The notes beneath the pieces were generated by a model. The model was not told the DNA's origin. It saw only the letters and a program-made list of their open reading frames with translations, and did not search any database. A stretch of 64,000 nucleotides of DNA from Pseudanabaena sp. UWO311. GTDB taxonomy: Bacteria > Cyanobacteriota > Cyanobacteriia > Pseudanabaenales > Pseudanabaenaceae. This document shows, piece by piece, positions 10,289-50,739 of this stretch (the stretch's first letter is position 1; every line of letters begins with the position of its first letter). The DNA lies in NCBI RefSeq assembly GCF_006937785.1, contig NZ_SJEE01000028.1, positions 1-64,000 of the forward strand. Direction: 5' to 3'. The position numbers and the translations under genes were made by a program.

Positions 10289-10930
10289 ATGACAGTTCAA
10301 TTAGCTTTACGTCAGCTAGAGATTCCCGAAGGGCAAAGATTGCGCTTGCACGATCTTAATTGGCAAGAATTTGAAGCAATTTTGGGAGAGCTTGGTGAAC
10401 ATCGTGCTTCTCGGATCGCTTATTTTGACGGGATATTAGAGGTGCGAATGCCTTTGCCAGAACATGAAGTTGACAAGGAATTGATTGGAGATATTGTCAA
10501 ACTGATTTTAGATACTTTTGGTATTGAGTTTGAATGCTTCGGCTCAACGACATTTAAGCGTCAAGAAATGAAAAGTGGTATCGAGCCAGATACTTGTTTT
10601 TATATTGCCAATCATCACAGGATGGTTGGTAAACGGAGGCTCAATCTCGCCATCGATCCACCGCCTGATTTATCTATAGAAATAGATGTCACTTCGTTTA
10701 CTCAACTAAAAGCTTATGAAGCTTTGCAGGTTGCTGAACTATGGTGCTACAGCAATCACCAGTTATCTATTTATATTTTGCATGGCGATCGCTACATTGA
10801 CTCCGATGTTAGTCCTACCTTCCCAAATCTAAAAATTACCGAAGCAATCCCAAACTTTGTAGCGATCGCTATCAATCAAGGTAGAAGCGCCGCTATGAGA
10901 GCTTGTCGTCAATGGCTTTCAGAAGAATGA
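10289..10930 (+). CDS. Uma2-family (DUF820) putative endonuclease
   Basis: A 213-residue member of the Uma2/DUF820 family, expanded in cyanobacteria and predicted to have a PD-(D/E)xK restriction-endonuclease-like fold. Visible core: IEPDTCFYI, then IDPPPDLSIEID, followed by AELWCYS. The lysine of the classical ExK...Y signature is not cleanly placed. Cellular role is unknown. Its last 22 bp overlap the end of convergent sdhB. A second Uma2 protein of the same subgroup is at 52746-53402 and a different subgroup at 15185-15760. Confidence 0.88.
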   Translation: MTVQLALRQLEIPEGQRLRLHDLNWQEFEAILGELGEHRASRIAYFDGILEVRMPLPEHEVDKELIGDIVKLILDTFGIEFECFGSTTFKRQEMKSGIEPDTCFYIANHHRMVGKRRLNLAIDPPPDLSIEIDVTSFTQLKAYEALQVAELWCYSNHQLSIYILHGDRYIDSDVSPTFPNLKITEAIPNFVAIAINQGRSAAMRACRQWLSEE

Positions 10931-11976: not shown

Positions 11977-12762
11977 CTATCCAATTACATACTGGAATTT
12001 TGAATCAATCGCACAACGAGCAACCGATGCAAATTCGGCACTATCCAAAATGGCATTTTCTAGAATGTCTTTTGCTTCCTTTGCTAATTCTTGAAATTCT
12101 TGGTCATTCTGTCTTTGCATAGCTAACAACAAAACTTGGTTTAATCCCCGTAATGGTTGCAGCTTTTCGAGTCTTGCTTCTGGTAGCGATCGAGCATTAA
12201 GTTTTAGTGAATCAATTGTAATTTGTCCTCTCTGGTTTCCTTGAATCGCATAAGCAATCACGCCTCTAAATCCGATAAACTCTTCAGGATTTTCTTTCCC
12301 AAAATCAATAAATAACGGTTGCTCTTGCTCAATTTTTTCTTTGTGGTTAGTAGCTCTTTCGGCTGGATTTTGAAGAGGGAATAAATTTTGTTTGTGTCTT
12401 TGGTTGCAACCAGTACAGGCAAGATAGAGGTTGTCCCATTCGTAAGCTAGCCAGTAGTAAGCTGGATATTTTAGAGCTTTGCCAGTTGCTTGTTTATAAG
12501 CTTGTTTCGGGCGAAAATGCTCGACATCGCCATCAGTGCCGATTAAGCGTTCGCAAAACCAGCATTTTTGGTGTTGTGCTTGAATTAGTGCTTGCTTGAC
12601 GGTTTTATGGGCGTAGATTGAACTATCAAATTCAAACTTTTTTGTCCCCGTTTCGTAGGCTGATGGATTACGAGAATATGAGGTGCAATGAGATCGCCGT
12701 TTTTGTTTACCATCTTTAGCGAGTTTTTCTGGCGGCGTTTGGGGTTTGTGAATCCGAATCAC
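11977..12762 (-). CDS. HNH endonuclease of the PtuB / retron-associated TIGR02646 type
   Basis: A 261-residue nuclease-like protein. The HNH core is clear: CWFCERLIG with DVEHFRPK (first His), then YEWDNLYLACTGCNQRHK (Asn and last His); the two CxxC pairs bind the structural zinc. This arrangement matches PtuB, the effector of Septu anti-phage systems, also found with Ec78-type retrons. The N-terminus is basic (KDGKQKRRSH). Its start overlaps the stop of the upstream ATPase gene by 4 bp (12759-12762), so translation is coupled. No reverse transcriptase or retron RNA is nearby, favouring stand-alone Septu. The family call is by motif recall; function is inferred. Confidence 0.85.
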   Translation of the reverse strand: MIRIHKPQTPPEKLAKDGKQKRRSHCTSYSRNPSAYETGTKKFEFDSSIYAHKTVKQALIQAQHQKCWFCERLIGTDGDVEHFRPKQAYKQATGKALKYPAYYWLAYEWDNLYLACTGCNQRHKQNLFPLQNPAERATNHKEKIEQEQPLFIDFGKENPEEFIGFRGVIAYAIQGNQRGQITIDSLKLNARSLPEARLEKLQPLRGLNQVLLLAMQRQNDQEFQELAKEAKDILENAILDSAEFASVARCAIDSKFQYVIG

Positions 12763-14258
12763 TCAACTGCCTCCGCACCAGATTTTTCTAATAATTTGGC
12801 AGCACGTCGAATGATGTCCATCGCTTTGATATCGTCTGGGTTTTCGGCAGTAGGCAAAGTGCCAATTTTTTCCTCTAATTCTTTCAGTTTTGCTTTATCG
12901 GCTTTTGAAATCTTTGGTTTTGAGAGAATCTCTTGTCTTTCAGCTAACAATTTCTCAATTTGAGGAGGTCGTGCTGAGGGGATTTCAAAAACACTGGTTA
13001 GAACTTGATCGACTCGCCAATTGTCAATAATCTCAGGATTGTTATCAATTACGACGCGATCGCCTTCTCGTCGTAATAAAACAATATTTGCATCTTGAGC
13101 AGCTTGCACCACTAGCGGACTATGGGCAGTAACAATAAATTGTGTATTGGGAAATCTCTCTGTCAGAAATTCCATAATTGTCCTTTGCCACTGTGGATGC
13201 ATATGCAAGTCAATCTCATCAACCAAAACAATCGCTGGTTCGGCAAGCGGATCTTCACTATCAGGATAACGTTTAAACAATCTCACTGCTAGATCGACCA
13301 TCCAAGCGATCATAGTACGATATCCCAATCCTAAACTAGATAATCGCACCCATCCATAAGGTGTTAAAAATTCTGCTGTTGGACGATCTCGCTCTTCATC
13401 TACTGGAGCAATACGAACATCTTCAACATCTGGTAAAACTCTCTTTAGCACTTCAATAATATGAGTTAACTGATATTGCAGTTGATCTTTTACCTTTCCC
13501 GAAGCAGATTTTATAGCATAATCGATTTGTAACATCCAATCTTCAGCATTAATAAGTAACGGACTATCTAAGAATATATTGCCAGTATTATCTTCAAAGT
13601 CAGGATAGCTTATAGATGAATTAGACATTTTTCTATTTGCGCTATAACCGTAACATATTGCGCCATTCAATAAATTAAGTGCTAATTTTGAGGCTTCTTC
13701 TTCAGCAGACTTACTCGAAGAATTTGGAAATAAAAATCTATTTAACTTTTGGGACTCAATAGGAAACCCTATCCTAGGCGAATAAGTCTGCATGTCTACT
13801 TTAATATGCACAACTTTGATCTCTGGAGAATTTTTTATGTCATTTTCAAGTATTCGCAAGGACTGCAGGTTTGCATTACAGATGTATTTAGTATTAATCT
13901 CACCCATAGTTCGCTGCATTGTCTGTAGTTCGGTTCTCCAATCTTTAAAATCATCTGAAACCCCTAAAAGAGTTATTAATGGATATGCTTGATAAGGTGA
14001 CTCTAAATCTTGTCTTATTGGGATTATCTCCATACCAGCTAAACACTTGAGCAATGTTGTTTTCCCAACTCCATTATTTCCTAAAATGACTGTCCATTGC
14101 GCTGGATGACCATTCTTATCTGAGAGATTGAGTTCTTGCTTACCCTTAAAACAGAGAATATTTTCTACTTCCAGAGAGAGGAAATACACAGGAGGAACTT
14201 TGCTTTTTAAAGCCGCAGGTTTACGTCTGGTTATATTTTTCTTGTGTTGGTTGGTCAT
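12759..14258 (-). CDS. AAA/ABC-type ATPase, PtuA-like
   Basis: A 499-residue SMC/ABC-like ATPase. Walker A is GNNGVGKTTLL near residue 62, the signature-like loop is RLSSLGLGYRTMI near 305, Walker B is VLVDEIDLHMHPQW near 350 and the switch His is in VTAHSPLVVQA. The middle part carries a long insertion, and the C-terminus has a helical, charged segment (SKPKISKADKAKLKELEEK) that may dimerise or contact the nuclease. It precedes and overlaps the HNH gene, the order ptuA-ptuB of Septu defence systems, in which ATP binding holds the nuclease in check until phage infection. Regulatory sequences upstream (14259-14320) are not obvious. Confidence 0.85.
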   Translation of the reverse strand: MTNQHKKNITRRKPAALKSKVPPVYFLSLEVENILCFKGKQELNLSDKNGHPAQWTVILGNNGVGKTTLLKCLAGMEIIPIRQDLESPYQAYPLITLLGVSDDFKDWRTELQTMQRTMGEINTKYICNANLQSLRILENDIKNSPEIKVVHIKVDMQTYSPRIGFPIESQKLNRFLFPNSSSKSAEEEASKLALNLLNGAICYGYSANRKMSNSSISYPDFEDNTGNIFLDSPLLINAEDWMLQIDYAIKSASGKVKDQLQYQLTHIIEVLKRVLPDVEDVRIAPVDEERDRPTAEFLTPYGWVRLSSLGLGYRTMIAWMVDLAVRLFKRYPDSEDPLAEPAIVLVDEIDLHMHPQWQRTIMEFLTERFPNTQFIVTAHSPLVVQAAQDANIVLLRREGDRVVIDNNPEIIDNWRVDQVLTSVFEIPSARPPQIEKLLAERQEILSKPKISKADKAKLKELEEKIGTLPTAENPDDIKAMDIIRRAAKLLEKSGAEAVE

Positions 14259-15184: not shown

Positions 15185-15760
15185 CTAAGCGTTAAAAATT
15201 TGTGATGGCGTTAACTTCAGTTCAGGAAACAGCAAGGATTTAATCAACTCATCGCCTCGATAAACTATTTCCTCATATAGCCCATCTTCCAGCAGTAAAA
15301 CTGTCACCTTGCGATCGCTAAAATCAATAATCCAATATTCAGGAATCTCGATCGCGTTATATTCTGCTCGCTTCTTGCGATAGTCAATATTGCGCGTACT
15401 ATCACTAACGATTTCTACAACTAATAAGGGAACAGAATCCGTTAATACCGCCTCTCGAAATCGCATCTCCTGCCACTGTTCCGATGTAATCACTACTACG
15501 TCGGGGACTCGACAAGTGATTTTCCCTCTTACTTGACCCGTTTGTACTGCTATCAAATCCTGCTTAGAAATTAATGGCAACTGCAACCGTTGAATCTCGA
15601 CACGGAAAGAATCATTGACAAATTCACTCATGCCGCCATGAATTCCCGTAGGCTGTGCCATCGCCAATAACTCTCCATTAACTAGCTCATAGCGCGTATC
15701 TGTCCCATCATCATAGGCAAGATATTCCGCAAGTGTCAGCAAAGGACTTGCAACAATCAT
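15185..15760 (-). CDS. Uma2-family (DUF820) putative endonuclease, classical subgroup
   Basis: A 191-residue Uma2 protein with the full PD-(D/E)xK-like core: YELVNGEL near residue 25, RVPDVVVIT near 95, [11 protein letters not shown] near 115, the lysine of DYRKKRAEY and the terminal EYWIIDF. This is the subgroup expected to be a Mg-dependent nuclease if any is; the biological substrate is unknown. The stretch 15022-15184 between it and the DUF29 gene holds no gene I can support, only a 27-codon frame on the minus strand. Confidence 0.9.
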
Positions 15761-17350: not shown

Positions 17351-18532
17351 TTATAGATAATCAAGAATCGAATCAGCAACACGGTTAATCGCTCCTTTTT
17401 CGCCCAAACTCTCTCTCACTCTAGAGTATCCATCGAGCATAGTTTGTCTTGCTTGAGGGTTAATTAATAGGTCTAGGGCACATTCCGCGATCGCTTCAGG
17501 AATCGCGTCAGTTTGCACAAACTCAGGTACGACTGATTCCATATTGACTAAATTCACAGGTGAAATAAATGGTAGTTTTAGCTTTAGCACATGACGCGCG
17601 ATCCAAGCCGTAACATTACTGACTCGATATAAAATTACCTGTGGCACATTGAGAAGAGCTGTCTCTAAATTCACAGTTCCAGATTTGCTAAGCACCAAGT
17701 CGGCCGCGCTAATTGCAATCTGAGACTTTGCGGAAATGATTGTGGCTTTAATGTCATATTCCTCAAGCAACTTCTCAACTTCGGGACGATAGCGTTCTAG
17801 AGATAGCGGCAACCAAAATTTGACATGGGGCAACTTGGTTTGGATGATTTTAGCGGCGGCAAGAATAATTGGCATAACCGATCGCAATTCTTGCGTTCGA
17901 GAAGCTGGAAGTAAAGTCACCACCAAATCATCATCAGCGATACCAAGTTGCTTACGGGCTTCCATGCGATCGGGAATCCTTGCCATTAAATCCACAAATG
18001 GATGCCCGACCCATTGCACGTTTGTGCCTTGCTTCTCGTAAAAAATTGCTTCTTGCGGGAAAATCGCCAATAATTTATCGGTAAAATCAGCGATCGCCCG
18101 AGTGTTTTTGTCGTTATATGACCAAACCCATTCTTGAGGAGCGATGTAATAGATGACGGGAATTTTTAACGTGTGTTTAGCATAATGCCCCATACTTTGA
18201 TTGGGCATCATGTAATCGATTAGTACTACCACATCTGGCGGAGCAGTTTTTAACCATTGTTTGGCATCTCGCTGCACCTTGAGGGTTGGCAAAACATAGG
18301 GCAATGCTTCAACTATCCCAATTGACCCAATTCCAACTGTATTTCCTAGAACCTTTATCCCTGTCGCCGCCATGCGATCGCCACCAAGCCCGACGATTTC
18401 TAATTCGATCCCTCTTAGGGCAGCCCGTTCACGCAAACCCTCAATCAAAATCGCTCCATGCCAATCACCTGAAACTTCCCCTGTACTAATAAACACGCGG
18501 CGTTTTATCTTGGTTTCTGAGCTAGATTTCAT
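17351..18532 (-). CDS. lpxB: Lipid-A-disaccharide synthase
   Basis: A 393-residue GT-B glycosyltransferase (GT19) of lipid A synthesis, joining UDP-2,3-diacylglucosamine and lipid X on the inner face of the membrane. Family motifs: STGEVSGDWHGA near residue 15, GLGGDRMAATG near 48, LIDYMMPN near 105, the PQEWVWSYN segment, LLPASRTQELRS near 210 and the KSGTVNLETAL acceptor/donor loop near 285. First gene of a probable lpxB-ldcA unit. The AT-rich ATPase/DUF3226 pair lies 83 bp upstream on the same strand. A related but distinct protein is encoded at 24183-25460. Confidence 0.95.
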   Translation of the reverse strand: MKSSSETKIKRRVFISTGEVSGDWHGAILIEGLRERAALRGIELEIVGLGGDRMAATGIKVLGNTVGIGSIGIVEALPYVLPTLKVQRDAKQWLKTAPPDVVVLIDYMMPNQSMGHYAKHTLKIPVIYYIAPQEWVWSYNDKNTRAIADFTDKLLAIFPQEAIFYEKQGTNVQWVGHPFVDLMARIPDRMEARKQLGIADDDLVVTLLPASRTQELRSVMPIILAAAKIIQTKLPHVKFWLPLSLERYRPEVEKLLEEYDIKATIISAKSQIAISAADLVLSKSGTVNLETALLNVPQVILYRVSNVTAWIARHVLKLKLPFISPVNLVNMESVVPEFVQTDAIPEAIAECALDLLINPQARQTMLDGYSRVRESLGEKGAINRVADSILDYL

Positions 18533-18615: not shown

Positions 18616-19311
18616 TTAGTTAAATAGACCCAAGAATTGGTTTAAATTATCCAAGGTTGGATGCTCTAAGTCCCAAATCTCGACCTTGTTCTCCATTACA
18701 TAATCAAATGCTCTCATACTACATTTACGCCCCGCTTGTTTTTTATCATTATTTGAGCAAGTATCGAATCTAACGTAAATATCGACCCAGAATTTATCAA
18801 AATCTTTGTCTTTGATGGTTTTACCATTACTTACCAAACAATTTTTCCAGCTTTCTAAGCAATCCGCATGAATAGATTCTTCTTTTTTAATTGCTTTTAA
18901 AACTGTTTCAAGTTCTCCTTGTCCATCGAGATTTGTAAAATAACAAGCTAATTGAATATTAAAATCTTCAAAATTTAGATTAATAAACTCATTAACTTTA
19001 ATAAGAAATTCTGAATTTGAAAATACCTCTTGGATACATTCATTAACAAACTTGATCCTATCCTCTTCTCGGCAGTTATCAATATCAATAATTACACCTA
19101 CCTTTTCAATTTCACCTTTTTGGATACTAGCTTTTAAATTTCCAAGAGCTGCTTTTAGCTTTTGATGATTTAATCCATCCATTTCTCGATAATCTTCATC
19201 TGAAATACGAATTGGTGTAGTGATTTCTATGTCAATATTAAGTTTGCGAATGATTGCTTGAAAAAAGTGTTTATCATTCTTGCTTTCCACTATCAAAATA
19301 TTCCTACCCAC
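18616..19311 (-). CDS. DUF3226 protein, Toprim-like nuclease candidate
   Basis: A 231-residue protein with the DUF3226 opening ILIVESKNDKHFFQAII; the Glu of VES and a later DxD (VIIDIDNCREED, near residue 95) are the spacing expected of a Toprim metal site as in OLD-family nucleases. Its start overlaps the stop of the upstream ATPase by 8 bp (19304-19311), so they form one unit. Pairs of an AAA ATPase and a stand-alone Toprim protein act as anti-phage systems in other settings (PARIS, split OLD/Gabija-like). Both genes look clearly more AT-rich than lpxB and rpmI beside them, which suggests acquisition. The defence role is inference. Confidence 0.8.
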   Translation of the reverse strand: MGRNILIVESKNDKHFFQAIIRKLNIDIEITTPIRISDEDYREMDGLNHQKLKAALGNLKASIQKGEIEKVGVIIDIDNCREEDRIKFVNECIQEVFSNSEFLIKVNEFINLNFEDFNIQLACYFTNLDGQGELETVLKAIKKEESIHADCLESWKNCLVSNGKTIKDKDFDKFWVDIYVRFDTCSNNDKKQAGRKCSMRAFDYVMENKVEIWDLEHPTLDNLNQFLGLFN

Positions 19312-20404
19312 CTCTCACCTCTTCATTGTGGCTAATACCATAATCTAAAGCATCTAAGTCTCGCTTGATCGCGACTATTTTATCGGTTTTAGCTTGTCTC
19401 GCCAGTTCAAAATGAACACCTAAATTTCGGTACTGCAACCCAGCTTTTAGAAAAGCTTGAGTCATTTCTAAACTATGCGTTGTCGCAAATATCTGTACAT
19501 TTAACTCATCGGCTAATTTATAAAGAACATTCCAAAAATAGACTTGATTGGAGTGATGAATCCCATTCTCAATTTCATCAATAATCAGGATACTGTTTTC
19601 ATTATTGACTAGTTTTAAGATAATATCGGCAATACGATTAATTGCATCGCCAAAAAGAGACAGAGGCAATCTACTCTTTCCATCTCTTTTTAAATAAATA
19701 GTAGGTTCACCAATACTAAAACTTTCCACCTCAGTAATAGAATTATCGATAGACTTAAAAGCTTTTAGAACTTCGTCATCCCTTTCACTTAAACGCGCTT
19801 TATCAAATTCACTTGTTAAGTCTCTATTAGAAACCCTTAAAAACGAAGGGATAAATGAAACGTTTCTACTTTCAGGAATTTTAATATCTCTCGCTATCAG
19901 ACCTTTAGCACTTGAAACAATTTGCGTTTCAAAAGATTCTTTGTTATTTATTGTTGTTTTAAGATGAATTACTGATACTGAAGATTCGCTGCCTGAGAAA
20001 AGGCTTGTAATATCTTCTTTTACTTCATCTTCTTGCCCTTCATTTTCTTGAGAAGTATTCACTAAAAAATTTTTTAATGATTCATCAACAGAAATCTCAA
20101 CTACTTTTGACTCATCATTATCTAGGACTGATTTAATTTGTATTATATCGCCCTTGTTTTGCTGGAAGAAAAAATTAATCCAAGTTCTTTCTGGCAAAGT
20201 TTTACTAAAACTTACTTGCTCTCGCCTTACTTGTCTTAGTGAAAAAATCGTGTCGGGTCTGGGAGCGCTATTTAAGAATATGGCTTCTAGTAATGCAGTC
20301 TTACCAACATTATTTTTACCGCTAATCAGATTAACTCTTTCAAAGCCAAATACTTTTAGGTTGTCAAAACACCTAAAGTTTTTAATTTCAATATTTTTAA
20401 TCAT
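19304..20404 (-). CDS. OLD/AAA_15-like ATPase partner of the DUF3226 protein
   Basis: A 366-residue ABC/SMC-type ATPase. Start MIKNIEIKNFRCF is the standard opening of RecF/OLD-like ATPases; Walker A is SGKNNVGKTALLEA near residue 33, a signature-like LSLFGDAINRI lies near 245, Walker B is LIIDEIENGIHHSNQ near 275 and the switch His is in ATTHSLEMTQ near 307. An acidic insertion of about 60 residues (residues 115-150) is unusual. The gene overlaps the DUF3226 gene and probably regulates that nuclease by ATP state. Codon use and base composition are AT-rich relative to neighbours. Confidence 0.85.
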   Translation of the reverse strand: MIKNIEIKNFRCFDNLKVFGFERVNLISGKNNVGKTALLEAIFLNSAPRPDTIFSLRQVRREQVSFSKTLPERTWINFFFQQNKGDIIQIKSVLDNDESKVVEISVDESLKNFLVNTSQENEGQEDEVKEDITSLFSGSESSVSVIHLKTTINNKESFETQIVSSAKGLIARDIKIPESRNVSFIPSFLRVSNRDLTSEFDKARLSERDDEVLKAFKSIDNSITEVESFSIGEPTIYLKRDGKSRLPLSLFGDAINRIADIILKLVNNENSILIIDEIENGIHHSNQVYFWNVLYKLADELNVQIFATTHSLEMTQAFLKAGLQYRNLGVHFELARQAKTDKIVAIKRDLDALDYGISHNEEVRGG

Positions 20405-20775: not shown

Positions 20776-21129
20776 ATGACGAGAGTAAAACGCGGTAACG
20801 TAGCTAGGAAGCGCCGCAACAAAGTACTAAAATTAGCCAAGGGCTTTCGCGGATCGCACTCTAAGCTGTTCCGCACTGCTAACCAGCAGGTAATGAAAGC
20901 TCTGCGTAATGCCTACCGCGATCGCCGCAAGAAGAAGCGCGATTTTCGTAGTCTCTGGATTACCCGCATTAATGCTGCGGCTCGCCAACAAGGTTTGAGC
21001 TACAGCAAGTTTGCTGGGTTGCTGAAGAAATCTAATATTGAGATCAATCGTAAGATGCTTTCTCAGATTGCGATTCTTGATCCTGATGCTTTTACCGCGA
21101 TCGTGGAAAAAGCAAAAGCGATCGCATAA
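20776..21129 (+). CDS. rplT: 50S ribosomal protein L20
   Basis: A 117-residue basic 23S rRNA-binding protein needed for early 50S assembly. Start [19 protein letters not shown] and the middle [14 protein letters not shown] are characteristic of bL20. Length is normal. In other bacteria L20 represses its own operon by binding the leader; whether that happens here cannot be seen. The unit is closed by a strong GC-rich terminator. Confidence 0.98.
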
Positions 21130-21134
21130 ACAAA

Positions 21135-21173
21135 AAAAGAAAAAAGCGGCGCTGAGCGCCGCTTTTTTCTTTT
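21135..21173. terminator. Terminator of rpmI-rplT
   Basis: Perfect 19-bp arms 21135-21153 and 21155-21173 with GCGGCGCT-G-AGCGCCGC at the centre and A/T tracts on the outside. Confidence 0.9.
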
Positions 21174-39500: not shown

Positions 39501-40793
39501 ATGCTTTTAGATTTTACTGTAGAGAACTTTCGCTCGATTAAGGGTGCGGAAACGCTTAGTGCTGTGGCGGCGAGTAAGAGCAAATCTAAAGCCAGTAATA
39601 GTGAGAGCGGTCGTCGAATTAAGTCTGATGATGAAATTGCCGAGCCTTTTCACGTTGAGGGTTGGGATATTGATGTTTTGCCAGTAATCGCAATCTTTGG
39701 CGCTAATGCTTCAGGTAAAAGCAATGTCTTAAAAGCTCTTAATTATTTGCTCAAGTTTATGTCAGAGGGAAATTATGATCGTGGAGCAGAATTAATACCT
39801 TTTAAGCTAAATCAACAAAGTAGGGAAAGTCCAAGTTCTTTTAAGCTTCGTATTTTATTTGATGGAACGATATATATTTATTCTTTAATCTTGAATAGTA
39901 ATCGGATACTTTCAGAAAAGCTAGAATATGCCCTAGTCTCTACAAAACGATATCGACTCTTGTATTCTCGATTTTGGAATGAAGAACATCAAAAATTTGA
40001 GTGGAAAAATGGTTCGGATTTTTCAGGCGCACATATTCAACTCGAAAAAAACTTGCAGGAACGTGAGCCTTTCACAAGTCTTTTCTCGAAGCTAGAAATT
40101 CAAGTAATTGATGCTTTTACGTTATGGTTTAGCGCAAGTTTTATGGCTAACGCTTTAAGTAATACTATGTATATCAATGTTATGTGGAATCTTAGTCAAA
40201 CTTCAAATCCAGAATTTTCTCCATTTTTAGAAAGAGCAAAAAAACTTTTAATTAAATTTGATACTGGCTTACATGATATTCAAATTAAAAAATCAAAAGA
40301 TAATGAAATGGATATAGAAGTTACAGCATTCCATAAAACTGAGCAGGGAGAAATACTTTCTTGGAAATTTGAAGAAGAATCTACAGGTACTCAAAGTTTA
40401 TTCAATTTGGCTGCTAGCATAGAATTTATACTTCAAGGATATTTACCCTTGGTAATTGATGAGTTAGGTTCAAATCTTCATCCAAATATAGTTCACAATA
40501 TTGTTCAACTTTTTCAAGACAAACAAACAAACCCTAAACGCGCTCAATTAATCTTTACGAGTCACGATAATACTTTACAGAGAAATAATTTATTGCGGCG
40601 AGATCAGATTTGGTTTACACAGAAGCGTCCTGACCAAAGTACAGAGCTATATTCACTTAGCGATTTTAAAGTGCGTAATGATTTAGCAATTGACAAAGCA
40701 TATCTAGATGGAAGATTTGGAGCAGTTCCATTTATTTCTGATGAAGATGAGGAGCCAACAAATTCAGAGGAGAAGGATAAAGACAATGGCTAA
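39501..40793 (+). CDS. RloA-like AAA ATPase
   Basis: A 430-residue ABC/SMC-like ATPase. Start LLDFTVENFRSIKGAETLSA is the standard opening of this group; Walker A FGANASGKSNVLKAL near residue 76, signature region EEESTGTQSLFNLAASI near 290, Walker B LPLVIDELGSNLHP near 317 and switch His in FTSHDNTLQRN near 352. The gene overlaps the RloB gene by 8 bp (40786-40793). RloA/RloB are a two-gene pair first noted inside restriction-modification loci; here they stand alone between chlD and a porin. The C-terminus is highly acidic. Function as a defence module is inference. Confidence 0.87.
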   Translation: MLLDFTVENFRSIKGAETLSAVAASKSKSKASNSESGRRIKSDDEIAEPFHVEGWDIDVLPVIAIFGANASGKSNVLKALNYLLKFMSEGNYDRGAELIPFKLNQQSRESPSSFKLRILFDGTIYIYSLILNSNRILSEKLEYALVSTKRYRLLYSRFWNEEHQKFEWKNGSDFSGAHIQLEKNLQEREPFTSLFSKLEIQVIDAFTLWFSASFMANALSNTMYINVMWNLSQTSNPEFSPFLERAKKLLIKFDTGLHDIQIKKSKDNEMDIEVTAFHKTEQGEILSWKFEEESTGTQSLFNLAASIEFILQGYLPLVIDELGSNLHPNIVHNIVQLFQDKQTNPKRAQLIFTSHDNTLQRNNLLRRDQIWFTQKRPDQSTELYSLSDFKVRNDLAIDKAYLDGRFGAVPFISDEDEEPTNSEEKDKDNG

Positions 40794-41418
40794 ATCTTCT
40801 CTCAAAAGAAATGCTCCCACAAAAACAGTTGGCAAAAAGATTTTGATAGCCTGTGAAGGAAAGCAGACAGAGCCAAAATATTTCAATGCAATTCGTCAAG
40901 ATCTACGCCTTACCACCGTACAAGTTTTGATACTTCCCCACGATGGAACCGATCCGCTTAGCGTTGTCAACGCAGTATTAGAAGCCAGAAAAGATAAAAA
41001 ACGCGAAAAGACTTGGTTTGACGATCAAGATTCAGCTTGGGCAGTCTTTGATGGTGATGAACATATCGCCAATAATCGCCCCAACTGGTGTCAAGCCATT
41101 CAGATTGCTAAACATCAAAAAATTAATCTTGCAATCACCAATCCTAGTATCGAATTTTGGTATCTCATTCATTTTCAAGCTCACTCAGCGATTATTGCAC
41201 GAGATAAAGCAAAAGACCGCTTAAAACAGCATATTCCTAACTACGACAAAGCCCGATGCTATTATCCAGAAAAGCTAAAGGAGCTGACTCAAGATGCGAT
41301 CGCAAGAGCAAAAGATCTTGATAACTTAGCCAAACAAAATAAACTAGCTGAATATGCAAATCCCTGCTGTAGCGGTATCTCTCAATTAGTCGATATGCTT
41401 TTGGGAATGGGCAACTGA
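40786..41418 (+). CDS. RloB-like protein, Toprim-like nuclease candidate
   Basis: A 210-residue RloB (PF13707) protein. Opening KILIACEGKQTEPKYFNAI holds the metal Glu (CEG) and the later WAVFDGDEH holds a DxD pair, the layout of a Toprim-type active site; TNPSIEFWYLIHF is the family signature. The open frame extends upstream, but ATG at 40786, preceded by AGGAGAAGG, starts MAKSSLKRNAP and overlaps the ATPase gene end, so this start is preferred. It is likely the effector controlled by the adjacent ATPase. Confidence 0.87.
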   Translation: MAKSSLKRNAPTKTVGKKILIACEGKQTEPKYFNAIRQDLRLTTVQVLILPHDGTDPLSVVNAVLEARKDKKREKTWFDDQDSAWAVFDGDEHIANNRPNWCQAIQIAKHQKINLAITNPSIEFWYLIHFQAHSAIIARDKAKDRLKQHIPNYDKARCYYPEKLKELTQDAIARAKDLDNLAKQNKLAEYANPCCSGISQLVDMLLGMGN

Positions 41419-49413: not shown

Positions 49414-50739
49414 ATGAAATTCAGTATATTTTTAACATCAATTTTTATCATATTAGGATTTATTCTTTGTACAGCCATTGCCATCATTATAAATCCACAT
49501 ATTTTCACAAGCTTTTTCTCTAACTCCGCCACTAAACTTTTTTATGATATTGAGCATTATTCAAATTTAGCAATACATCAAACTTGTAATGCATTTTATC
49601 CCCTATGGTCGTGGCTAATTAATAGATTAGTAAAACCTCAAACAGTAGATGATGCTGCATTATATTTTCGTGTTTTTGGTAGCTTATTATCTTTGATGAG
49701 TATTCCCCTATTTCTATTTCTGCTATTACAAAATATCAAAAGCTATAAAATAATATCTTTAGTTGCAGCACTCTATGCAATGAATCCTCTTTCAGTCTTC
49801 AGAATGATTGGTTATACAGAAGGGGGTTTTTCTTTTTTAAGCCTGCTTTTTTTAATTATTCTAAGCAATTTTAAATCAACCTCAAAAACACCTGTTAAAC
49901 AGGTTAAATCAATTTATCTATTGATACTTATATTTATTTTGTCTTTGTTGCTTTCATTAACAAGACCTTTTCTTATACAAGCAGCATTTGCTTGTGTATT
50001 TGCATTGGTCTCAATTTTAGTAATAAATAGATTTCAGAATAGTACAGACTCTTTAAAAATACTTAAAACCTATGGCATAGCAACCCTAGTAATTTGCCTT
50101 GGTTCTGCTGTTGGTTATTGTATCTATGGATATTATTGCTTAGAATCAAGAGGCGATTTTTTCGCCCCTTTTCATGATCAAAAAAATTGGGGTAAGCAAT
50201 TAGGACTTTATCCTCATTTATTTTTTATTCCATTAACTTATGCTGATTTTATATCAATATATTTGCCATTTATATTATTAATTACATCATGGCTAATTTC
50301 TATCTCTACTAATATTAGAAAGCTAACTTTTGTCATTCCAAAGGTTTGGCAATGGATATTGCTTTTTGCCTATCCACCAGCTTTTTTAGCATTCTATGGC
50401 TCTGACTTTAAAAGAGGAAATTTTTCAAACAAAACAAATAATTTAAGTGGTATTAACTTAACTCATACAGCCAACAATCTATCCACTAGTTATACATTTT
50501 GGTTTTGTGTATATTTTGCTCTAATACATACAGTTATTATTGTTTTTAGTGACCAAAAGTTAACTAGCTTAAGACGTTTTATATTTGGAACTCCTTATTT
50601 CTTTTTTGCGATCGCCTATATAAGTCAATGTTTTCCATCGCGAAAAGTGAGTAAATTGCTTTTGTGGATACTAGGAATATCAAGTATATGGTTAGTGCAG
50701 TATTGGTTAGACTATGCTAACGGTATTTGGATTGGCTGA
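49414..50739 (+). CDS. Polytopic membrane protein, PIG-V/GT-C mannosyltransferase-like
   Basis: A 441-residue, very hydrophobic protein with about nine to ten membrane segments. Early loop FYDIEHYSNLAIHQTCNAFYPLW, with an aspartate after the first helix, and the stretch AALYAMNPLSVFRMIGYTEG, recall the GT-C/PIG-V (PF04188) mannosyltransferase-like family, which use polyprenyl-phosphate sugars. Base composition is visibly AT-rich against hemF and livF, and HIP1-type sequence is nearly absent, suggesting acquisition. Function is uncertain; it may glycosylate lipids or surface polymers. Monocistronic, closed by a palindrome shared with hemF. Confidence 0.72.
   Translation: MKFSIFLTSIFIILGFILCTAIAIIINPHIFTSFFSNSATKLFYDIEHYSNLAIHQTCNAFYPLWSWLINRLVKPQTVDDAALYFRVFGSLLSLMSIPLFLFLLLQNIKSYKIISLVAALYAMNPLSVFRMIGYTEGGFSFLSLLFLIILSNFKSTSKTPVKQVKSIYLLILIFILSLLLSLTRPFLIQAAFACVFALVSILVINRFQNSTDSLKILKTYGIATLVICLGSAVGYCIYGYYCLESRGDFFAPFHDQKNWGKQLGLYPHLFFIPLTYADFISIYLPFILLITSWLISISTNIRKLTFVIPKVWQWILLFAYPPAFLAFYGSDFKRGNFSNKTNNLSGINLTHTANNLSTSYTFWFCVYFALIHTVIIVFSDQKLTSLRRFIFGTPYFFFAIAYISQCFPSRKVSKLLLWILGISSIWLVQYWLDYANGIWIG

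Follow-up and report, generated by a model that had tools for sequence, protein, structure and literature searches.

A split-OLD ATPase/DUF3226 gene pair of the PDC-M38 type as a probable anti-phage module in Pseudanabaena sp. UWO311

This analysis concerns a stretch of 64,000 nucleotides from the cyanobacterium Pseudanabaena sp. UWO311 (assembly GCF_006937785.1, contig NZ_SJEE01000028.1, positions 1 to 64,000), in the following called the window, which lies on contig 25 of a 5.2 Mb genome and contains on its minus strand two overlapping genes for an ABC ATPase and a protein with a domain of unknown function, DUF3226. The reading that we favor, and hold to be reasonably probable, is that the pair is a dispensable split-OLD module of the PDC-M38 type that acts against phages, with a two-metal Toprim nuclease bound by the ATPase; protection of the cell from viruses is its probable function. 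The argument is built on computed features, namely the pair and its gene order, its motifs, its predicted fold, an empty site in relatives and a patchy spread. A first-pass annotation, made from the sequence alone, had suggested a possible split-OLD defense module; the structural half of this suggestion, a Toprim-type DUF3226 protein in a split-OLD pair, holds up, and the defense half is plausible in view of the listing of such pairs in PADLOC and of a nearby Septu pair.

The ATPase gene (19304..20404, 366 residues, ATG start) overlaps by 8 bp (19304..19311, from the coordinates of the open reading frames, ORFs) the DUF3226 gene (18616..19311, 231 residues, GTG start), and translational coupling of both genes via this overlap is likely. 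In Pfam, the ATPase falls into the AAA_15/AAA_21 group of OLD-, AriA- and PtuA-like proteins (E 1.1e-25 and 5.8e-15, respectively), and the DUF3226 protein matches PF11536 at E 6.7e-21 with 75.5 bits, the cut-off being 27. The Walker A, Walker B and H-loop features of OLD-family ABC ATPases are all present: in an alignment of 48 homologues, window included, the Walker A motif GKNNVGKT (residues 29-36, 20297..20320, minus strand) has G29, N31, N32, G34 and K35 in all sequences and T36 in 47, and the Walker B motif LIIDE (residues 273-277, 19574..19588, minus strand), followed by ENGIH and the H-loop residue H310, has D276, E277, N280, G281, H283 and H310 in 48 of 48. The AlphaFold2 model of the ATPase (pLDDT, the predicted local distance difference test score, of 87.6) aligns in VIA-align with SMC/Rad50 heads (Z up to 20.1), GajA (8x5i, Z 18.7), AriA (8v46, Z 18.3) and PtuA (Z 18.3). 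The first-pass annotation had described an overlapping, AT-rich pair at this place, and the 8-bp overlap, both ORFs and the quoted motifs are all found; the base composition agrees as well, with GC contents of 0.307 and 0.331 for the pair genes (about 0.25 at third codon positions) against 0.443 for lpxB, 0.475 for rplT and a window mean of 0.424 (standard deviation 0.044; 47 non-overlapping ORFs of at least 150 residues, pair counted in). Promoter-like sites numbered 5, with 8.4 expected.

The main evidence for a nuclease comes from the putative active site of the DUF3226 protein, which was followed in a main alignment of 54 sequences, window included, and in a deeper alignment of 18 sequences that reaches down to 16% identity; all positions given here lie on the minus strand. 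Toprim motif 1, ESKND (19273..19287), offers E9 as proposed ligand of metal A and D13 as proposed ligand of metal B, the DxD motif consists of D76 and D78 (19078..19086), E133-L134-E135 (18907..18915) at the start of a helical bundle are proposed to contribute metal B ligands, and K173 (18793..18795), within helix 168-183 of the model, is a proposed catalytic lysine resembling K562 of BpOLD. E9, D13, D76, E135 and K173 occur in all 54 sequences, D78 in 51 (asparagine in 3) and E133 in 52 (aspartate in 2), so that the Toprim Glu...DxD site named in the first-pass annotation, an invariant glutamate with a DxD motif as in the OLD family, can be recognized with the sole variation at D78. In the deeper alignment E9, D76, D78, L134 and K173 are invariant and E135 nearly so, position 13 being D or E by eye, and in 12 sequences of the commoner subtypes the E, D, D, E and K columns do not vary. 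The residue sets of three characterized Toprim proteins are published: in BpOLD, metal A is bound by E400, D455 and D457, metal B by E404, T506 and E508, and the helical domain contributes K562 (PMC6755086); in TsOLD, E377, D381, D431, D433, S478, E480 and R487 (PMC7049728); and in retron-Eco2, E374, D378, D460, D462, S513, E515 and K562 (PMC12405507). The order and spacing of the DUF3226 residues fit this set, the distance of E9 to D13 being that of E400 to E404 in BpOLD, and D13, E135 and K173 sit where the metal B ligands and the lysine of class 2 OLD proteins would be expected; the residues were matched up from their order in the sequence, their spacing and their location in the fold instead of from superposed coordinates.

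The predicted structure points in the same direction. The structure prediction that had been proposed in the first-pass annotation returned a Toprim core with a helical bundle: the AlphaFold2 model of the DUF3226 protein (mean pLDDT 92.9, predicted template modeling score 0.88) has an alternating beta-alpha core at residues 3-126 and a helical bundle at 134-230 that begins with helix 134-140. In VIA-align, the model matches PH0156 (2p62), which we take to be a DUF3226 family member, with Z 13.3 over 194 residues at a root mean square deviation of 3.7; next to it stand the C-terminal regions of class 2 OLD proteins (6nk8, BpOLD, and 6njv, both Z 9.1, over 169 and 163 residues), retron-Eco2 (Z 7.1 over 168 residues) and GajA (Z 7.0 over 154 residues). 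Neither AriB nor RNase M5 chains appear in the best 50 VIA-align matches of the model, which excludes nothing. Pfam provides further links. The OLD-like Toprim family PF20469 matches a DUF3226 gene of the same genus (G017:C17, which corresponds to loci L021 and L174) with 24.0 bits at a cut-off of 23.2, and with 22.3 bits, just below this cut-off, when the annotated ORF alone is used; PF11536 in turn matches three proteins that combine ATPase and Toprim in one chain (L194, L195, L197), each in its Toprim part, with 19.9-25.5 bits, below its cut-off of 27, and of these three proteins two match the Toprim family PF01751 and two the OLD-like Toprim model. A GajA model matches the L021 DUF3226 protein over the Toprim stretch of GajA at E 7e-4. 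With the window protein as query, a sequence search among solved structures gave nothing relevant, nor did one with the protein of locus L002; the DUF3226 profile A2 reached 2p62 at E 1.5 only. The fold alone would not suffice for an OLD-like Toprim assignment, which is made because fold, motif set and Pfam links come together, and on sequence and model it holds that the DUF3226 protein is of the Toprim type with, by position, an OLD-type active site.

How does the pair relate to catalogued systems? Among the PADLOC 2023 models, PDC-M38A (PDLC04611) is the best for the ATPase, matching it at E 3.2e-56 (residues 1-364 to model positions 1-383 of 383), and PDC-M38B (PDLC04623) matches the DUF3226 protein at E 6.3e-15 over residues 1-109 of 231 only, in both cases as matches to the model alone, outside the coverage and system rules of PADLOC. 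PDC-M38 has the same two adjacent components as the window pair, and the commoner type of the same genus, L021, scores 7e-93 and 5e-64, whereas the window DUF3226 protein belongs to a diverged subfamily that starts with VESKND. The window pair is thus a diverged member of an already catalogued defense candidate and not a new category of system; the first-pass annotation was right in calling the pairing less described, but it is not new. The phage defense candidates (PDCs) were collected by guilt-by-embedding, mostly without experimental test (PMC12988326, PMC11514479), and two others, PDC-M63AB and PDC-S04, gave no defense in one study (PMC12409345). HEC-01B of the system HEC-01 also matches the DUF3226 protein, at residues 6-87 with E 0.0031, which is far weaker than PDC-M38B.

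The published classification of OLD proteins comprises several classes, of which the split class 4 is PARIS (PMC10568477, PMC12796447). With class 2 (GajA, BpOLD) the window pair shares the ABC ATPase, the Toprim domain with helical bundle and, by position, the residues E, E/D, DxD, E and K, but the class 2 proteins are single chains, and the single-chain ATPase-Toprim arrangement of OLD classes 1-3 is replaced here by two overlapping genes; among the 80 loci of relatives, 78 likewise have two separate ORFs. A Gabija system can be set aside, as no UvrD-like GajB helicase gene is adjacent, the neighbors being lpxB and rpmI/rplT. With AbiL, the two-gene layout is shared and the AbiLi model PDLC02336 matches the window ATPase at E 1e-53, but no AbiLii model matches the DUF3226 protein at E ≤ 1, while the AbiLii model does find RloB in the same window. 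AbiLii of F. nucleatum was reported to be toxic in E. coli and not to be relieved by its AbiLi, and AbiLii of L. lactis to be non-toxic (PMC3985639). The Toprim effector of retron-Eco2 has by position the same catalytic residue set as the DUF3226 protein; it differs in being fused to a reverse transcriptase with multicopy single-stranded DNA, and it is reported to be an RNase. For two ATPase-Toprim fusions, IbfA and HEC-04, an anti-phage effect was reported (PMC12111858).

A similar layout is that of PARIS, in which ATPase and Toprim protein are likewise encoded by separate adjacent genes, and in which the Toprim protein AriB is described as a tRNase that is sequestered by AriA (PMC12409363). 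By analogy, the window ATPase might sequester the DUF3226 protein until a phage trigger frees it to cleave tRNA and shut off translation. AriA models match the ATPase (4.6e-24; the Z of 18.3 to AriA 8v46 was given above), a profile alignment of DUF3226 with DUF4435 pairs the glutamate and the DxD motif (E 1.7e-4, probability 49; probability 7 with profile A3; altogether a weak to moderate link), and retron-Eco2 demonstrates an RNase with the same residue set. However, the Toprim protein of PARIS is DUF4435/AriB and the partner in the window is DUF3226, no AriB model matches the DUF3226 protein at E ≤ 1, a DUF4435 search of 58 genomes matched none of the DUF3226 places, and of the characterized nucleases those that score best are C-terminal regions of class 2 OLD proteins, enzymes that cleave DNA. 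We consider such a PARIS-like shut-off unlikely, also in view of the gene losses described below. PF14491 matches in this genome only another locus, G000:C1, and not the DUF3226 pair; there (G000:C1:93488-94081, L183) a protein of the DUF4435/AriB type (AriB model 1.4e-12) and an ATPase resembling AriA are encoded with a 4-bp overlap, which makes a PARIS-like pair.

A search for the pair across genomes, suggested in the first-pass annotation, shows that it recurs in several phyla. A profile-seeded scan of GTDB contigs, many of them binned metagenomes so that some taxon names may be wrong, yielded 114 DUF3226 relatives, and the best 80 come from cyanobacteria, Thiotrichales, Methylococcales, Desulfobacterota, Campylobacterota, Cloacimonadota and Bacteroidota. 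The ATPase gene lies 5' of the DUF3226 gene in 78 of these 80 loci, in 76 within 100 bp, and 52 of the 78 have an overlap of exactly 8 bp; L075 and L117 have a wider gap caused by a damaged DUF3226 ORF, L128 begins at a contig edge, and L103 carries a DUF3226 gene without the first 24 model positions and no ATPase gene. Since the active-site residues are conserved and the ATPase gene so regularly precedes its partner, the pair is more than a chance arrangement. In the genome searches the ATPase lies within the flank in 55 of 59 loci, duplicates included, the others being L008, L024 and, as one place, L028 and L052. The distribution is patchy: PF11536 occurs in 28 of 58 genomes of relatives and in 69 of 386 cyanobacterial genomes, or 37 of 142 genera, the own genome counted in each case, and the window DUF3226 protein as query finds matches in 27 of the 386.

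Broken copies were surveyed in 139 loci, duplicates included, with an 85% rule for breakage, setting aside L081, L128 and L137 at contig edges and the doubtful L024. The DUF3226 gene is broken and the ATPase gene intact in L007, L039/L075 (one place, with a stop near the DUF3226 start that escaped the 85% rule), L055/L058 (one genome) and L117, the ATPase gene is broken or absent and the DUF3226 gene intact in L008, L020, L126 and L134, and both are damaged or lost in L054/L059/L122, L028/L052, L103 and L148. Single-gene loss is therefore symmetric, 4 versus 4, in a small sample in which errors of draft assemblies are possible and some broken copies are uncounted. A toxic Toprim protein as in PARIS would predict that loss of the ATPase alone is rare, and the symmetry therefore gives no support for a freely toxic DUF3226 protein held in check by an antitoxin-like ATPase.

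That the pair is a dispensable unit, gained here or lost elsewhere, can be seen at its site. On its 3' side lies lpxB (17351-18532, minus strand), and on its 5' side, in opposite direction, rpmI (start at about 20506, read by eye) and rplT (20776-21129); the segment 18533..20447 between them is without counterpart in relatives of the same genus, by insertion here or loss elsewhere. Of the 26 genomes of the genus, 23 were found to have lpxB, a count that includes the genome of the window. The rpmI region directly adjoins lpxB in 19 of the remaining 22, and in the other three, L159, L161 and L162, it does not lie beside lpxB within the 1.5 kb examined. The lpxB-rpmI gap measures 1914 bp in the window versus 39-664 bp in these 19 relatives, and in 18 of them the site is empty (tblastn of both proteins, E ≤ 10), including the closest relative by lpxB (L141, 98% amino acid identity). 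The remaining one, L148 (G014), retains at the same site a remnant of the ATPase, residues 1-123 at 68% identity, and by tblastn no DUF3226 gene. The dispensability follows from the empty site and does not rest on the tree. The first-pass annotation had named a conserved housekeeping context as a finding that would speak against it; the flanking genes are indeed housekeeping genes, yet the pair is absent between them in relatives.

The same data bear on two further explanations. The pair could serve housekeeping or DNA maintenance instead of defense, as Cran1 reportedly does (PMC12796447), and in line with this many neighbors of the relatives are ordinary genes, and the copy in Acinetobacter has glyS on one side and a YCII gene on the other. 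However, the patchy occurrence, the site without the pair in 18 of 19 relatives and with a broken pair in one, and the broken copies elsewhere stand against it, and because the pair is so dispensable a core function is unlikely; we regard this explanation as clearly improbable. In this genome the pair could also be a remnant that is inactive or in decay, for which one might invoke its AT-richness and the truncated ATPase of L148, which shows that such pairs decay, but both window ORFs are full length and keep the conserved motif residues, and this explanation has very little probability. No terminal repeats surround the insert, and inverted arms of 75-88% were found away from its ends. After rplT, at 21135-21173, lies a perfect 19-bp inverted repeat with a 1-bp loop, and the lpxB-rpmI gaps of L141, L143, L149, L155 and L157 contain long palindrome-like stretches by eye; possibly these repeats belong to a family similar to repetitive extragenic palindromes or miniature inverted-repeat transposable elements (REP/MITE-like).

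In order to see in which company the relatives occur, 36 of the 80 loci, hand-picked by flank length, were sampled, and the two closest ORFs on each side with 110-750 residues (near set, n=130) were compared with ORFs more than 5.5 kb away (far set, n=105, after one of 106 was dropped as it was already in the near set). A PADLOC scan at 1e-15 matched 137 models in the near set and 87 in the far set, which are models and not distinct proteins, and among the 25 models listed per set all but two matched at most 2 proteins. Among the matches listed are AriA, AbiLi, HEC-06, PDC-S01 and DNA methylases for the near ORFs and DNA methylases, PDC-S02 and Cas12f/Csx1 models for the far ORFs. Among the best 25 of 98 Pfam families of the near ORFs are AAA_21 (4), AAA_15 (3), DNA methylase (2) and GmrSD (2), the others being ordinary.

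Several observations weigh against the reading as a split-OLD defense module. In the active site, the hydroxyl ligand of the OLD proteins (T506 in BpOLD, S478 in TsOLD) is a glutamate, E133, here and mostly a methionine in the wider family. In VIA-align, unrelated Rossmann-like domains tie with the OLD proteins (Z up to 9.6, aligned only over 92-121 residues; those at Z 8.1-9.6 over 109-121 residues), Foldseek alone finds for the DUF3226 model no match at E ≤ 0.001, neither in general, where the first row is retron-Eco2 (9i2f_C, E 0.017), nor against viral models, and profile-profile comparisons of DUF3226 with OLD Toprims are weak (probabilities 35 and 2), a control comparison of profile A4 with the OLD Toprim profile A5 giving E 0.58. 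No functional test of the pair was found, and no paper with DUF3226 or PDC-M38 turned up in an open-access collection that does not include bioRxiv and most subscription papers. No DUF3226 relative was found among the viral contigs searched; two records named Acinetobacter phage MD-2021a match (CAKLQH020000003.1, CAKLQF020000004.1), but the one that was opened (L164) is plainly a bacterial chromosome with aroE, glyQ/glyS and ast genes. The commonest Pfam families of the near ORFs, among the same best 25, are acetate kinase and histidine phosphatase (6 each), and the near neighbors are a mix of ordinary and defense-type genes, from which enrichment can be claimed neither way. Finally, the tree, which places the window copy in a starred clade of 8 with copies of Nostocales and Chamaesiphon, suggests a transfer between lineages, but a recent transfer is not proven because the approximately unbiased (AU) test does not reject one clade with the two other Pseudanabaena copies of the set (p 0.165).

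Other genes of the window and records met on the way may be mentioned here. A complete Septu pair on the minus strand (11977-14258), about 4.4 kb from the ATPase/DUF3226 pair, consists of PtuA (12759-14258, PADLOC 3.7e-158) and PtuB (11977-12762, 2e-92), which overlap by 4 bp. On the plus strand, 19 kb from the ATPase/DUF3226 pair, an AbiL-type pair (39501-41418) has an AT-rich ATPase gene (39501-40793, AbiLi model PDLC02335, 2.9e-83) followed by an RloB ORF (40708-41418 from the first start codon, PF13707 1.1e-40, AbiLii model E 1.3e-22), and it served as positive control for the AbiLii model. The genes at 15185-15760 and 10289-10930 match PDC-S03 (1.2e-71) and PDC-S17 (5.5e-39); they look Uma2-type, a type common in cyanobacteria, and the matches may mean little. 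Among the 47 long ORFs, the one richest in AT (49414-50739, plus strand, GC 0.298) encodes 441 residues, hydrophobic by eye and with no Pfam match at 0.001. In L164 the DUF3226 homologue lies beside a gene annotated as "chromosome segregation protein", and one matching record filed as plasmid is 4.1 Mb long.

For the split-OLD module, a mechanism can be proposed by analogy with OLD, Gabija, PARIS, AbiL and retron-Eco2: the two proteins would form a complex, the ATPase would regulate its partner, and the partner would act as a nuclease in defense. The ABC ATPase would bind the DUF3226 protein and serve as an ATP-dependent sensor or scaffold, and upon a phage cue the Toprim protein would become an active two-metal nuclease, with E9, D76 and D78 holding metal A, D13 and E133/E135 holding metal B, and K173 placed at the scissile phosphate. 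Cleavage of DNA or RNA would then stop the infection, probably with growth arrest. The ATPase could either restrain the effector, as in PARIS, or activate it, as in the archaeal OLD protein Cran1, whose nuclease domain is reported to be inactive without the ATPase domain (PMC12796447). DNA is slightly favored as the target by analogy, because the best-scoring characterized nucleases are class 2 OLD proteins, which cut DNA, but the example of retron-Eco2 shows that an RNase can work with this set of residues as well.

Tentatively, and with somewhat less confidence than for the window pair itself, the DUF3226 pairs might be regarded as a further split form of OLD defense system, distinct from PARIS, in which a class 2-type Toprim domain with bundle and lysine would constitute a separate subunit next to a compact ATPase; its range would include cyanobacteria, sulfur bacteria, methanotrophs, Campylobacterota, Desulfobacterota and Bacteroidota. 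For the DUF3226 family, the analysis provides a testable activity, that of a two-metal Toprim nuclease for which candidate catalytic residues can be named, and for a PADLOC candidate a clear mutant design. The pair would add another split ATPase/Toprim layout to be set beside PARIS and AbiL, and it may bear on the regulation of OLD enzymes in which the nuclease forms a subunit of its own.

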